From: Planctomycetia bacterium
GTDB lineage: Bacteria > Planctomycetota > Phycisphaerae > Phycisphaerales > SM1A02
Direction of reading: 5' to 3'
Assembly (NCBI GenBank): GCA_005799205.1
Contig: SYHM01000036.1
Coordinates: forward strand, 1-37,032
Length of the DNA: 37,032 bases
The notes under the pieces are model-generated. The model had not been told where the DNA came from. It ran no database searches and saw only the letters and a program-made list of their open reading frames with translations. Every line of letters begins with the position of its first letter. The first letter of the stretch is position 1. Positions 5,394 to 29,583 of this stretch are shown one piece after another. The translations under genes and the position numbers were made by a program.

Positions 5394-6457
5394 TGCAAAC
5401 CATCGCCATCTTCGTCGCTGCGTACCGCGAACTCAGCGCGAGACGACTCTTCTGGCTTGCACTCGGAATCACGCTCGTTGTCGTTGGGCTCTTTGCCTGC
5501 CTGGGACTCAATGAAACCGGAATCAGCTTCCTCGGATGGACCTTCGACAGCCCTTTCTACAACACGACGACGACTTCTCCTGAGACCTTTTACAAGCAGC
5601 TCTTTGTGAGCCTTGGAGTCGAGTGGTGGCTTGGGCTCATCGCCACGCTTCTCGCGCTCGTGACCACCTGCGGGATCGTTCCCGACCTCGTTGCACCAGG
5701 GTCGGTTGACCTGCTGCTTGCGAAACCGATTACGCGATCTCGACTCTTCCTCACCAAGTACGCGAGCGGATTACTGTTTGCGGCACTTCAAGTATTGGTG
5801 TTCACGACGGCAAGCTTCATCGTCATCGGAATTCGAGGAGGCGCGTGGGAGATTTCACTCTTCGCTGCGGTCCCCATCGTGACTTTTTTCTACAGCCTGC
5901 TCTTCAGCATCTGCGCGCTCATCGGGGTTGTGACACGATCATCCGTTGCTTCATTGATCCTCACCCTGCTTGCGTGGGCAGTCATCTTCACGATCAACTT
6001 CGCAGAAATGATCGTCAGCCGCGGTCGACTCGCCAACGAAATGGAGGGGCGATCGATCGTCGCTTCGCTCGCGAGTACTGAAGATCCACCTGACGACGAG
6101 ACTCGTGAAGAGCTCGAGGCAGACCTCGCGCGTGTTCGAGAGCACGAACCGAATTGGAACACCGCACACGGCTGGCTCTTTGGAATCAAGACGTGCCTGC
6201 CGAAAACCACCGACACGTTGGCGCTGCTCGATCGGTGGCTCATCGATCCTGCAATGCTTCCACAGCGGGGCGAAGATTCAACTCGCGGTGCGGAAGGCGC
6301 ATTCGGCTCGCGCAGAGTTCGCGGCGGCGAGTTCGAACGCGCGGTGCGCGACGAACGTCGCGCTCATTCGCTCTGGTGGATTGTCGGCACGAGTCTGCTC
6401 CTTGAAGGATGCATCCTCGCGCTTGCAACGCTCATCTTTGCCAGACGCGACTACTAG
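5390..6457 (+). CDS. ABC-2 type transporter permease
   Basis: Multi-TM protein with DLVAPGSVDLLLAKPITRSRLFLTKYASGLL; ATGA overlap with the ATPase gene. Confidence 0.88.
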   Translation: MMQTIAIFVAAYRELSARRLFWLALGITLVVVGLFACLGLNETGISFLGWTFDSPFYNTTTTSPETFYKQLFVSLGVEWWLGLIATLLALVTTCGIVPDLVAPGSVDLLLAKPITRSRLFLTKYASGLLFAALQVLVFTTASFIVIGIRGGAWEISLFAAVPIVTFFYSLLFSICALIGVVTRSSVASLILTLLAWAVIFTINFAEMIVSRGRLANEMEGRSIVASLASTEDPPDDETREELEADLARVREHEPNWNTAHGWLFGIKTCLPKTTDTLALLDRWLIDPAMLPQRGEDSTRGAEGAFGSRRVRGGEFERAVRDERRAHSLWWIVGTSLLLEGCILALATLIFARRDY

Positions 6458-6478
6458 CGCCCACTCACCCGCCTCGAC

Positions 6479-7768
6479 TCACCCCGCGCTCGGCTTCGAC
6501 TTCGCTGCGGGCTTTCGTGCAGGAAGTGGATACTGCGAGACGTACTCGGGCTTCAAGAAGAAGTAGTAGAGCGTGCCTTCACAGTATTGGCCTCCAGCGA
6601 GAATCTCTGCCGAAGGCCCGATTCCCATGAAGATGTCCGCTCGGCCAGGGGCGCGAATGGCACCTCCAGTGTCCTGATCAAGCATGAATCGCGTGAAGGG
6701 TTGGCGCGATCCACCGTATGAACTCGACTGCGTGTTAACAAACATCACCCCGCCTGGCGGATAGACGCTCTTGTCGGTTGCGAGTGAAACCTTGTCTGTG
6801 ACCTTGACGCCCAGGCTTCCTGCAGGCCAAGTCTTTCCGTCGTACTGCTGAAAGAATGTGTAGCGGTTGTTGAGATTGATCGCCGCCAACACGGGTGCAG
6901 GATCCTTCTCATACAGCCGACGAATCGCCGAAAGATTCAGTTGATTCTCAGGGATCGCGCCGGCTGCGACGAGGCTTGTTCCCAGTCCCACATACTCGCC
7001 ATCGGTTGCTCCCGCGTAGCCAATGAACATGATCTTCCCATCGGGCAGCAGCAACTTTGCGCTCCCGTTGACTTGCACGATGTACGCGTCGAGCGCCGTG
7101 GGAAACCACGCGAGTTCTAGCCCGTTGAGCATTCCAGAGGTCTGAATCTGCTCTCTGTTTGGCCACGGAGCGATTTCGCTGGGCGAGATACGTCGACCAA
7201 GTGCCTTGCCAGTCGTTGGATCCGTTTCGAGTTCCTTCGGTCGCTTGTAAATCGGGAACTCGAATCCAGGAGCCTTGACCAGACTCGCCTTGAATTCGGG
7301 CGCGTAGTACCCCGTGAAGAGCACTCCACCCTTTCCGTTCCAGCCCTTCGTCTGCCAGCAATCGAACATCTGCATGAGCGCACTCGTGAATGCAGCGTGA
7401 TCGGCGCTCTCATTGAGAATCTGCCGAAACGCGATCACACTCGACGAGGCCTGATCCCACGTGCAGACTTCTGGAAATGGAAACATCTGTGGAAAGCGCG
7501 AACGACTCGATGGACTCTCGTACCACGTCTGATCCTGCGCGAGCGCTTCCGTGAGATAGGCGTCACGCGCGTTCCATGCTCCGGTCAAGTCAGGCCACGC
7601 TTCGCCTGGTTCGAGTTTTCGCAAAGCACACTCACCAGGAGCGAGCGGCCGCGCAAAGTCGGCGACTGGACCTGGTGCAGGTGGAGTCTCGCATCCAACG
7701 AGCGCGATGGTCGCGCAGCAGATGGTGACGCAGAAAGAAAGGCCGATAGTTTGTTTGCATCCTTGCAT
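6479..7768 (-). CDS. mltA: Murein transglycosylase A (MltA family) lipoprotein
   Basis: Lipobox ALVGC; GVLFTGYYAPEF, FIGYAGATDGEYVGLG, and 3D-domain region RFMLDQDTGGAIRAPGRADIFMGIG. Confidence 0.9.
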   Translation of the reverse strand: MQGCKQTIGLSFCVTICCATIALVGCETPPAPGPVADFARPLAPGECALRKLEPGEAWPDLTGAWNARDAYLTEALAQDQTWYESPSSRSRFPQMFPFPEVCTWDQASSSVIAFRQILNESADHAAFTSALMQMFDCWQTKGWNGKGGVLFTGYYAPEFKASLVKAPGFEFPIYKRPKELETDPTTGKALGRRISPSEIAPWPNREQIQTSGMLNGLELAWFPTALDAYIVQVNGSAKLLLPDGKIMFIGYAGATDGEYVGLGTSLVAAGAIPENQLNLSAIRRLYEKDPAPVLAAINLNNRYTFFQQYDGKTWPAGSLGVKVTDKVSLATDKSVYPPGGVMFVNTQSSSYGGSRQPFTRFMLDQDTGGAIRAPGRADIFMGIGPSAEILAGGQYCEGTLYYFFLKPEYVSQYPLPARKPAAKSKPSAG

Positions 7769-25974: not shown

Positions 25975-27387
25975 ATGAACGACACGGCGAACCCGATTGT
26001 GAACCCAACTCACTCGGACGAGTGGTTTTCGGGTCGGCGCATCACGCTGATGGGGCTGGGACAGTTCGGCGGAGGCCTCGGAGTAGCTCGATGGCTGCTT
26101 GCTCGCGGCGCTCGGGTGACCATCACGGACCTCGCGAGTGACGCGACACTCGCACCGTCCCTCACTCCCATTGCTGACGCTGTTGCTGATGGCCGAGTCG
26201 ACCTTCATCTTGGGTCACACGACACTCGGGATTTCGAAGGGGCAGACCTCGTGGTTGCAAACGCAGCGGTCCCAAGACCGTGGACCAACAAGTACCTCTG
26301 CGCAGCGCGTGACGCTGGAGTCCCAGTCACAACTGAGATCAGGCTCGCCATCGAGCGCCTCGGCACGGGTCGCATCGTTGGAATCACTGGAAGTTCCGGC
26401 AAGTCGACAACAACTGCGATGACGGCCTGCGCACTCGCGGGGTCTGGACGCGAGGTGCGCTGCGGAGGCAACATTGGGGGATCGCTCCTAGGCGCTTCTC
26501 CGCCATCTGTGCGAGAGTGGATCGTGCTCGAACTCTCGAGCGCTCAACTCTGGTGGCTCTCACGAGATGCTGGGGCTGCAGGATGGTCGCCTCGGGTCGC
26601 TGCACTCACAAACATCGCCGCGAATCATGTCGATTGGCATGGATCGCTCGAGCACTACATTGAATCAAAACGGCAGATCCGTCGCGAGCAACGAGAGGAC
26701 GGAGTCTTTGTGACCGCGTTCACGCGCGAAAACCGAGTCGAATCGGAGGCGTTCGCCCGCTCGACGGCTGGGGGAGGATGGTGGATCGGCGGGAACGATC
26801 CTGCATCGCTCGGAATGGAGGAGGTTGCGCTCGCGATCCCCGGCGAGCACCAACAGCGCAATGCGCAATTGGCGCTCGCAATCGCGGCAACCTGCGCGGA
26901 CATCGATGGAGAACCAGCAAACCTCAGCGGCGCGCGCGCTGCGCTGCGCTCATTCCAAGGGCTTGAACACCGACTTCAAGCAGTCGGAGTCGTGAACGGT
27001 GTTCGTTGCTTCAACGACTCAAAGGCGACGACTCCACAAGCAACTCACCTCGCCCTTGCATCGCTCGGCAACCTCTCTCGCATCCACCTGATCGCTGGTG
27101 GGTACGACAAGAAGATCGACCTCTCCTCGATTCGGGATCTCGCAGGCAAGGTCGCCGGGCTTTATGCCATTGGTGAGACCGCGCGAGCGATCGCACCCGC
27201 TCCCCCAGCGTTGCGATTCGACTCCTTGGCCGAGGCTGTCGCGAGCGCCTTCGCACATGCCAAGAGCGGAGACACGCTGCTGCTTTCGCCAAGTTGTGCG
27301 AGCTTCGATCAGTTCACGAATTATGAAGCGCGCGGACACGCCTTTATCAAACTCGTGCGAGATCGTGTGGCAGGCAGTCATTGCTAG
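25975..27387 (+). CDS. murD: UDP-N-acetylmuramoylalanine--D-glutamate ligase
   Basis: RIVGITGSSGKSTTTAMTA, CGGNIGGSLL, VLELSSAQL, NIAANHVDWHGSLEHYIESKRQI, FNDSKATTPQATHLAL, HLIAGGYDKKIDLSSI. Confidence 0.94.
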   Translation: MNDTANPIVNPTHSDEWFSGRRITLMGLGQFGGGLGVARWLLARGARVTITDLASDATLAPSLTPIADAVADGRVDLHLGSHDTRDFEGADLVVANAAVPRPWTNKYLCAARDAGVPVTTEIRLAIERLGTGRIVGITGSSGKSTTTAMTACALAGSGREVRCGGNIGGSLLGASPPSVREWIVLELSSAQLWWLSRDAGAAGWSPRVAALTNIAANHVDWHGSLEHYIESKRQIRREQREDGVFVTAFTRENRVESEAFARSTAGGGWWIGGNDPASLGMEEVALAIPGEHQQRNAQLALAIAATCADIDGEPANLSGARAALRSFQGLEHRLQAVGVVNGVRCFNDSKATTPQATHLALASLGNLSRIHLIAGGYDKKIDLSSIRDLAGKVAGLYAIGETARAIAPAPPALRFDSLAEAVASAFAHAKSGDTLLLSPSCASFDQFTNYEARGHAFIKLVRDRVAGSHC

Positions 27388-27422
27388 ACTCTCAGCGTGC
27401 GCTCTCGTTGCAGACTTCTCAC

Positions 27423-27920
27423 ATGAAATCACTCACATCCATCGCTCTCGCATCGCTCTGGGCTGTTGCTTTCTTCGCACTTCTCGTGGGTTGCTACACC
27501 CCAGCGGGCGGATTCAATCCTGGTACCGGCCGAGGGTTTGTCTACATTTCGACACCAACCCGTCCTGTGACGATCACGCTCGTGGACACTCGAAATGGTG
27601 AGGCGTTCTTCAAGTTGGACATTCCCGTTGGAGAGCAATTGACCTTCAAGTTTGTTGAGGGTTCTGGAACTGGTGCACGCATGGAGCCAACCAAGATGCT
27701 CTGGTCGGTGTGGGAGGCGAAGACCGAGTTTGGGTCGCTCAATAATCAACTCATCTGCCCTCCTGAGTCTTGCCGCAGAATCGACGTGACCTATCGACCG
27801 GCTCCCGAGGATCCACCGGTTGATCCAACCCTTTTGATCCCGCCCGACTCGGCCGCTCCAACGTCCGGTCCTGACACCCCCGCGGGTGGGGCTCAGCTTC
27901 CCAATCGCCCGAAGGACTGA
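27423..27920 (+). CDS. Hypothetical lipoprotein
   Basis: MKSLTSIALASLWAVAFFALLVGC lipobox; remainder unrecognised. Confidence 0.75.
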   Translation: MKSLTSIALASLWAVAFFALLVGCYTPAGGFNPGTGRGFVYISTPTRPVTITLVDTRNGEAFFKLDIPVGEQLTFKFVEGSGTGARMEPTKMLWSVWEAKTEFGSLNNQLICPPESCRRIDVTYRPAPEDPPVDPTLLIPPDSAAPTSGPDTPAGGAQLPNRPKD

Positions 27921-28422: not shown

Positions 28423-28449
28423 AATGAACCGAACCCTATACTCGCTTGC

Positions 28450-29583
28450 ATGAGAGCTGTCGTCACTGGGCAAGTTGGCATTGACAAAAAGCACTACCTG
28501 CAAGCAGTTGTCACAGCGGGCGGCGAGCGCGGTGACCGGATCGACCTCTTTAATATCGGCGACCGGATGTACGCCGAGGCGACCGATGTGCGCCCTGGAC
28601 GCATTCTTGACCTTCCGATTTCGCGCCTCGCGAGCCTGCGACGCGCCGCGTTCAAGGATGTGATCGCCGCGACCCAACCCAAACAGAGCCATCCACATCT
28701 GATGGTGAACACACACGCGACCTTTCGGTGGCGTCACGGCCTCTTCAGTGCGTTTGACTTTGACCAGTTACTCAAACTTGAGCCGAACTGTTTCATCTGT
28801 CTGGTTGACAATGTCGAGACGATTCACCATCGACTTCACCGGGACCACGTCATCGACGCAACGCTCAAGGATTGTATGGTTTGGCGCGAAGAGGAGATCC
28901 TCGCAACCGAACTCATGGCGCAGGCGCTTGGGTGCAGTAACAATTTCTATGTTCTCAGTCGTGGACGGCAGCAGGACACCGTCGAGACATGCCTGAGGCT
29001 TATCACGCGGCCTGAGATGCGCAAGGTCTACCCGTCGTTTCCGATGAGCCATGTGATGGACATGGCAGATGTGATGGCTGAAATCAATCACTTTCGAGCG
29101 GAACTCGCGAAGCACTTCATTACGTTCGATCCAGGCGATGTCGACGAGAAGTTGCTGCTCGATCGTGCGCTCGACGCTGCGCGCAAGGGCGAGGACTTTG
29201 TCGAAGTGCAGCCGCACTCCTTCGGTGGTCGCGAGGGGAATCCAACGATGCGGCTCCCGGTACGTGAAGTGCTCGACATTGCGGGAGATATCGATGGGCA
29301 GATCTACATGCGCGACTTCAAGCTCGTTGACCAAAGCGACATGATTGTTTCGCTCGTGCCAGAACTTGCCGGCGGAGTGCCTGGCCTCTCGAGCGGGGTC
29401 GAACGCGAACTGCATCATGCCTTCGAACACACGAAAGAGGTGTATGTCGTCTGGAAACCAAAGAAGAACCCAAGCCCGTTCATCACCGAAACTGCAACGC
29501 GCATCTTTCGCAGCGTCGATGAGGCTCTCGGGTTCTTCGATAGCGAGGGGATGCTCGCTCCGACATCCCTCTTCGGGCACTGA
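28450..29583 (+). CDS. Two-domain protein: archaeal adenylate-kinase-like NTPase domain plus nucleoside 2-deoxyribosyltransferase-like domain
   Basis: N-term MRAVVTGQVGIDKKHYLQAV (degenerate P-loop position) and HLMVNTHATFRWRHGLFSAFDFDQLLKLEPNCFICLVD; C-term RKVYPSFPMSHV..EINHFRAELAKHFITFDP and MRDFKLVDQSDMIVSLVPEL..LSSGVERELHHAFEHTKEVYVVW. Confidence 0.7.
   Translation: MRAVVTGQVGIDKKHYLQAVVTAGGERGDRIDLFNIGDRMYAEATDVRPGRILDLPISRLASLRRAAFKDVIAATQPKQSHPHLMVNTHATFRWRHGLFSAFDFDQLLKLEPNCFICLVDNVETIHHRLHRDHVIDATLKDCMVWREEEILATELMAQALGCSNNFYVLSRGRQQDTVETCLRLITRPEMRKVYPSFPMSHVMDMADVMAEINHFRAELAKHFITFDPGDVDEKLLLDRALDAARKGEDFVEVQPHSFGGREGNPTMRLPVREVLDIAGDIDGQIYMRDFKLVDQSDMIVSLVPELAGGVPGLSSGVERELHHAFEHTKEVYVVWKPKKNPSPFITETATRIFRSVDEALGFFDSEGMLAPTSLFGH

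Follow-up and report, generated by a model that had tools for sequence, protein, structure and literature searches.

P-loop kinases bind the Mg2+ of their nucleoside triphosphate through the Ser or Thr that follows the conserved lysine and through the Asp at the Walker B position. In human DNPH1, the catalytic triad consists of Tyr24, Asp80 and Glu104, and Ser98, six residues before the glutamate, binds the 5'-phosphate; MilB keeps this phosphate-binding serine as Ser97 (PMC10603095, PMC10483697). Nucleoside 2'-deoxyribosyltransferases (NDTs) that act on nucleosides have an Asp or Asn that stabilizes the 5'-hydroxyl and is absent from the nucleotide enzymes (PMC12884076).

Here, we analyze a gene whose product joins a domain resembling the archaeal adenylate kinases (AdkA) to a domain of the NDT/DNPH1 type. 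It lies in a stretch of 37,032 nucleotides (the window; contig SYHM01000036.1 of assembly GCA_005799205.1) from a Phycisphaerales genome, a fragmented assembly of 2.0 Mb that is 81% complete. Our analysis shows the two folds, in predicted structures, together with the conservation of individual residues, the distribution of the family and the strong selection acting on it; catalysis, a preference for monophosphates, hydrolysis in place of transfer and a gating role are inferred. In the reading that we favor, with moderate confidence, the protein is a core nucleotide 5'-monophosphate N-glycosidase that carries a kinase-dead AdkA module as a clamp or sensor.

A conserved, apparently vertically inherited gene

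The gene is a complete open reading frame, stop codon included, at positions 28450–29583 of the forward strand, encoding 377 residues (Table 1); a check against the sequence showed that the earlier note on this DNA had located the frame and its motifs correctly. Homologues are present in 60 of the 61 nearest genomes, at identities from 100% down to 65% and at full length in nearly all, and the three closest comparisons gave a dN/dS of about 0.02, an approximate value because synonymous sites are close to saturation. In one comparison the protein was better conserved than its housekeeping neighbors, at 77% identity where ispF had 68% and truA 56%. It is beyond doubt a real gene under strong purifying selection. 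The AlphaFold model of the whole protein is confident (pLDDT 91.2, pTM 0.90).

Table 1. Positions in the window of the gene, its domains and motifs, and the candidate promoter element
Feature	Position	Strand	Basis
Two-domain protein gene	28450..29583	+	Open reading frame with stop; homologues in 60/61 relatives; dN/dS ~0.02
TATACT, candidate -10 element	28437..28442	+	7 nt 5' of ATG; kept in close relatives, enriched relative to shuffles
N-domain, residues 1–187, archaeal adenylate kinase (AdkA) fold	28450..29010	+	Pfam AAA_17, PDB profile matches, Foldseek 6ln3
Altered P-loop TGQVGIDKK, residues 6–14	28465..28491	+	Alignment of 99 members
NTHATFRWRHGLF, residues 87–99, Asn87 at the Walker B position	28708..28746	+	Asn in 99/99
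C-domain, residues 188–377, NDT/DNPH1-type fold with an insertion of ~50 residues	29011..29580	+	Model, Foldseek, BFVD, hhalign
YPSFPMSHV, residues 194–202, putative NDT Y-x-[AS]-x-P / DNPH1 Tyr24	29029..29055	+	Y194, S196, P198 and M199 invariant
FDPGD, residues 226–230, tentative DNPH1 E55/H56 position (water activation, base contact)	29125..29139	+	Conservation; equivalence tentative
D289, putative catalytic Asp equivalent (DNPH1 Asp80)	29314..29316	+	Invariant in 99/99; NDT-family alignment; placed by motif and spacing
SSGVERE, residues 314–320; S314 at the DNPH1 Ser98 position, E320 at that of the Glu104 nucleophile	29389..29409	+	Invariant in 99/99, hhalign

When 125 good Phycisphaerae genomes were searched with the family profile, 112 were positive, nearly always with a single match. 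The gene is missing from families f8, f102, f108, f110 and f116 and, since several lineages of the class do without it, it cannot be called essential to the class. The family is essentially absent from the remaining Planctomycetota: in a phylum-wide sample, the sole convincing match outside the class (L118, G274:C466; 63% identical) lies in genome G274, which belongs to another class, on a contig of 6.6 kb that may have been mis-binned or may reflect a transfer. Of the best 80 of 376 relatives, 72 are labelled Planctomycetota, seven have no phylum label and one carries a Bacteroidota label that looks mistaken; the nearest named relatives among these 80 are freshwater metagenome-assembled genomes (MAGs) such as Baikal-deep-G179 (95%). 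Several public MAG names (Chitinophaga, Kuenenia and Singulisphaera; loci L024, L063, L077 and others) also look wrong, as the contigs carry Phycisphaerales-type genes.

The protein tree follows the taxonomic families closely, with 14 label changes against a minimum of 13, and by this measure the family is apparently inherited vertically. We considered and rejected a mobile, phage or defense gene, because searches of plasmids, phages and viral contigs found no homologue and PADLOC gave no hits. A link to oxygen was likewise dropped: the gene occurs without COX1 (haem-copper oxidase) in families f9 and f115, and COX1 occurs without the gene in f108.

The N-terminal half: an AdkA fold with an altered P-loop

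Residues 7–132 match Pfam AAA_17 above its gathering score (E 1.5e-6), and alignment A1 shows this domain in each of its 59 members; the match to PRK04040, the NCBIfam equivalog for archaeal Adk, stays under its cut-off (23 versus 155 bits). Searched against the PDB, the family profile retrieved archaeal adenylate kinases, with 6ln3 at E 5e-10; the N-terminal half alone retrieved such kinases at 2e-10. With the AlphaFold model, Foldseek aligned the same structure, the A. pernix adenylate kinase, over 194 columns (TMt 0.81, E 2e-9), so that the AdkA-type fold suggested in the earlier note from the letters of the DNA is well founded.

The nucleotide-binding motifs depart from those of AdkA. The profile alignment sets VTGxPGVGKTT of AdkA opposite VTGQVGLDKKE, and IDTH opposite VNTH. 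In an alignment of 99 members drawn from the class as a whole, Gly7 and Gly10 are invariant and residue 13 is Lys in 97 and Arg in two. Position 12, the Gly of Walker A, is Asp in 91 and otherwise Glu, Asn or His, while position 14 is mostly Lys, also Gly, Arg or Gln, with Thr in three and otherwise neither Ser nor Thr. The family pattern is therefore GxxGx[D/E/N/H]K in place of GxxGxGK[ST], and the Walker B position holds Asn87 in 99/99 instead of the Asp of IDTH. What had been called a degenerate P-loop is indeed non-canonical, but the term degenerate does not hold: on the alignment, GQ[VI]GxDK is a motif fixed throughout the family, with no decay.

That both Mg2+-binding positions are altered family-wide argues against phosphoryl transfer; kinase activity has probably been lost, and the N-domain probably serves in binding or regulation, not as a second enzyme. 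With Lys13 and an otherwise invariant NMP-facing surface retained, it may still bind a phosphate-bearing ligand. A bifunctional enzyme, in which the N-domain would be a working nucleotide kinase that passes nucleotide to or from the C-domain, draws support from the same lysine (97/99, Arg in two), from the largely invariant NMP-binding face and from the complete AdkA fold; we nevertheless consider it quite unlikely, as Asp takes the place of the Gly at position 12, nearly all members lack the Mg-binding Ser/Thr, every member has Asn where Walker B has Asp, and canonical Adk and Tmk are already present. Ordinary Adk was found in 16 of 16 and Tmk in 20 of 20 genomes checked, so the fusion protein does not replace them, and the idea of a stand-in for a missing NMP kinase was rejected.

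The ordinary Adk genes themselves differ among lineages. Among the genomes checked, those of Phycisphaerales and f106 give a match of about 480 bases (for example, G000:C147:15451-15933) that scores much lower than the match of about 550 bases in f8, f9, f103 and f116; one Phycisphaerales genome (G056) holds both kinds. This suggests that the adenylate kinase of the lineages with the shorter match is of the short-LID type.

The C-terminal half: an NDT/DNPH1-like domain

Modelled alone, the C-domain was predicted with a pLDDT of 90.5. Its top PDB match in Foldseek was the 2'-deoxyribosyltransferase 7o62 (TMt 0.73–0.74), and the other leading matches were a YtoQ structure, a Chroococcidiopsis NDT and human DNPH1 (TMt 0.65–0.73). 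Among the top hits, 7o62, DNPH1 and 8pqr had a probability of 1.0; normalized to the query, the TM-scores are moderate, at about 0.5. Viral models named nucleoside 2-deoxyribosyltransferase are among the best C-domain matches in BFVD. Foldseek thus returns a P-loop kinase fold for the N-terminal half and a Rossmann-like NDT fold for the C-terminal half, the two assignments on which the earlier note had staked its proposal. At rank 25 in BFVD stands A0A6N1NX88, a Tupanvirus "adenylate kinase" of 602 residues that matches the NDT-like domain weakly and may be an independent fusion of adenylate kinase and NDT carried by a giant virus.

At the sequence level, Pfam Nuc_deoxyrib_tr (PF05014) matched eight of 59 members, none significantly (best E 0.072), and the C-domain sequence, searched by itself against the PDB, gave no relevant match. 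Because the Pfam model is marginal, the assignment of this half rests on fold and residues. Compared by hhalign with 31 NDT-family sequences taken from the phylum, IYMRDFKLVDQSDM...LSSGVERELHHAF lies opposite IF..CV..ID.ADVVVA.LDG..DSGTAFEVGYA (E 0.0012, with a probability of only 20%), an alignment that puts Glu320 on the nucleophile and Asp297 on the NDT-family motif. The candidate glutamate that sequence inspection had picked out within SSGVERE is thereby strengthened, all the more as it is invariant. The glutamate was placed by hhalign, and the Tyr and Asp by motif and spacing.

Tyr194, Asp289, Ser314, Ser315, Gly316, Glu318, Arg319, Glu320 and His323 are each identical in 99 of 99 aligned C-domains, whose identity to that of the 377-residue protein falls as low as ~46%. 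A catalytically idle protein, with two nucleotide-binding folds kept for regulation or protein binding, would suit an N-domain that clearly lacks catalytic positions, but this invariance of every C-domain catalytic residue down to such identities makes it very unlikely. The C-terminal half appears instead to possess a complete chemistry, and it resembles the nucleotide branch. At the position six places ahead of the nucleophile, Asp occurs in most of the NDT-family proteins used for comparison, and Ser314 in the fusion protein; the resemblance to the nucleotide 5'-phosphate branch (DNPH1/MilB) at this position is suggestive, not proof. The loop after residue 255 is variable, and one homologue (L129 in G027, 5542-6774, + strand) has an insertion of ~35 residues there.

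The same position bears on the choice between hydrolysis and transfer. A base-exchanging transferase with nucleosides or nucleotides as substrates, either a true NDT or a DmtZ-like enzyme serving salvage or the synthesis of an unusual nucleotide, would have the catalytic residues that the protein indeed has in common with NDTs, and DmtZ sets a precedent for transfer of deoxyribose phosphate within this fold (PMC12884076). Against it, residue 314 is Ser and the nucleoside-type Asp is missing, and we regard it as unlikely. We also know of no unusual nucleotide in Phycisphaerae. Given the phosphate-type serine, hydrolysis of nucleotides is more likely than salvage of nucleosides; in our best reading of these residues the C-domain would be a sanitizer, with a transferase less likely and the kinase half probably not adding a second enzyme.

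Besides nucleotide salvage and sanitization, the note had suggested a nucleotide-signal enzyme. In such a switch, a ligand of the N-domain would trigger a TIR- or SLOG-like C-domain that cleaves NAD+ or makes a base or ribose signal. The architecture of a binding domain joined to a glycosidase fits, and TIR (EcThsB2) and Sir2 structures are among the weaker Foldseek matches; by TM-score, however, NDT and DNPH1 rank ahead of both the Sir2 and TIR folds. Defense and signal enzymes of the TIR/SLOG-like kind are usually patchy in distribution, and this gene is single-copy, vertical and near-universal, with neither a class-wide neighborhood nor PADLOC hits. We judge a signal switch quite improbable, and the N-glycosidase with a kinase-dead module remains our preferred reading.

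Genomic neighborhood and promoter

The neighboring ispF and truA are kept mainly inside the family of the source genome and partly in its order, and a survey based on crude ORF calling found no class-wide gene neighbor; an operon clue to function was therefore dropped. Upstream lie a Mur-ligase-like protein with a MurD-like N-domain (25975-27387), kept with ispF in close relatives, and a small lipoprotein-like protein (27381-27920), which has no Pfam match, adjoins ispF across the family and overlaps the listed ispF start.

Close relatives have the TATACT hexamer at -12/-13 as well (CGTATACTCG). A TATAAT-like hexamer is present in the tested window of 52 of 159 distinct upstream regions, compared with a mean of 8.4 and a maximum of 18 in shuffles, an enrichment given without a formal P-value because the upstream rows are related by descent. 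The proposal that the gene has its own leaderless promoter gains support from this excess, and for this genus and its near relatives a leaderless transcript is plausible; many distant family members lack such a site.

Discussion

The nucleotide-handling fusion first proposed from the sequence stands, as both fold assignments pass with a confident model. We propose that the protein is a cytoplasmic core enzyme of the class, which would cut a (deoxy)nucleotide 5'-monophosphate at its N-glycosidic bond. Glu320, positioned by Tyr194, would attack C1', giving a phospho-(deoxy)ribosyl-enzyme in a retaining mechanism, with Asp289 protonating the leaving base and Ser314, together with the YPSFPMS loop, holding the 5'-phosphate; water would then release the sugar phosphate. 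The AdkA-like N-domain would bind nucleotide or phosphate that it no longer transfers, and might select the substrate or sense the nucleotide pool, thus gating the C-domain.

Genes that are single-copy, highly conserved, near-universal in a class and essentially missing elsewhere in their phylum usually have a core role. The bolder claim, that this is a class-defining and previously undescribed core protein, its kinase-dead adenylate kinase having turned into the nucleotide sensor or substrate clamp of a nucleotide N-glycosidase, is possible but somewhat doubtful. If it is true, nearly all Phycisphaerae have a nucleotide-handling step directed at a damaged or unusual nucleotide or at a nucleotide signal, and a pseudo-adenylate-kinase joins the known pseudo-enzymes. 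An N-glycosidase controlled by a dead kinase would amount to a sanitation or signaling step in a poorly studied class and would offer a direct assay target, in which the single residue Glu320 would divide active from dead.

We found no description of such an AdkA-like/NDT-like fusion in the open-access literature that we searched; within that literature, the architecture and the lineage-core family appear to be new, and the superfamilies are already known. AdkA (PRK04040/NF003122; 6ln3, 1nks, 6pjw and OdinAK 7owe) has the fold in common with the N-domain over ~190 residues, with the VTG start, the G-x-M and THA motifs and the NMP-binding face in register. It differs in having GxPGxGK[ST] and the Asp of IDTH where the fusion protein has GxxGxDK and Asn, and the fusion protein, unlike AdkA, has a second domain attached and scores far below the NCBIfam cut-off. 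The nucleotide 5'-monophosphate N-hydrolases DNPH1/Rcl and MilB/BcmB have the fold of the C-domain (TMt 0.65–0.73 for DNPH1 and 0.54 for BcmB), and the fusion protein has, at matching spacing, their Tyr/Asp/Glu triad and the phosphate-binding Ser that stands six residues ahead of the nucleophile. Identity to them is ~12–14%, however, and the fusion protein, encoded by a bacterial core gene, adds the ~50-residue insertion and the AdkA-like domain. The nucleoside 2'-deoxyribosyltransferases (PF05014; 7o62, 8pqr and 6evs) provide the best Foldseek match (TMt 0.74) and align at the [DS]SG-xxxE motif, but the fusion protein is without their nucleoside-type Asp, at Ser314, and the members tested gave no significant Pfam match. 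The phage NDT-Dut fusion (Wayne; DmtZ-DutZ, PMC12884076) likewise combines an NDT/DNPH1-type domain with another nucleotide-handling domain; there, the partner is a working dUTPase-like pyrophosphatase in a phage-borne protein, whereas here it is AdkA-like.
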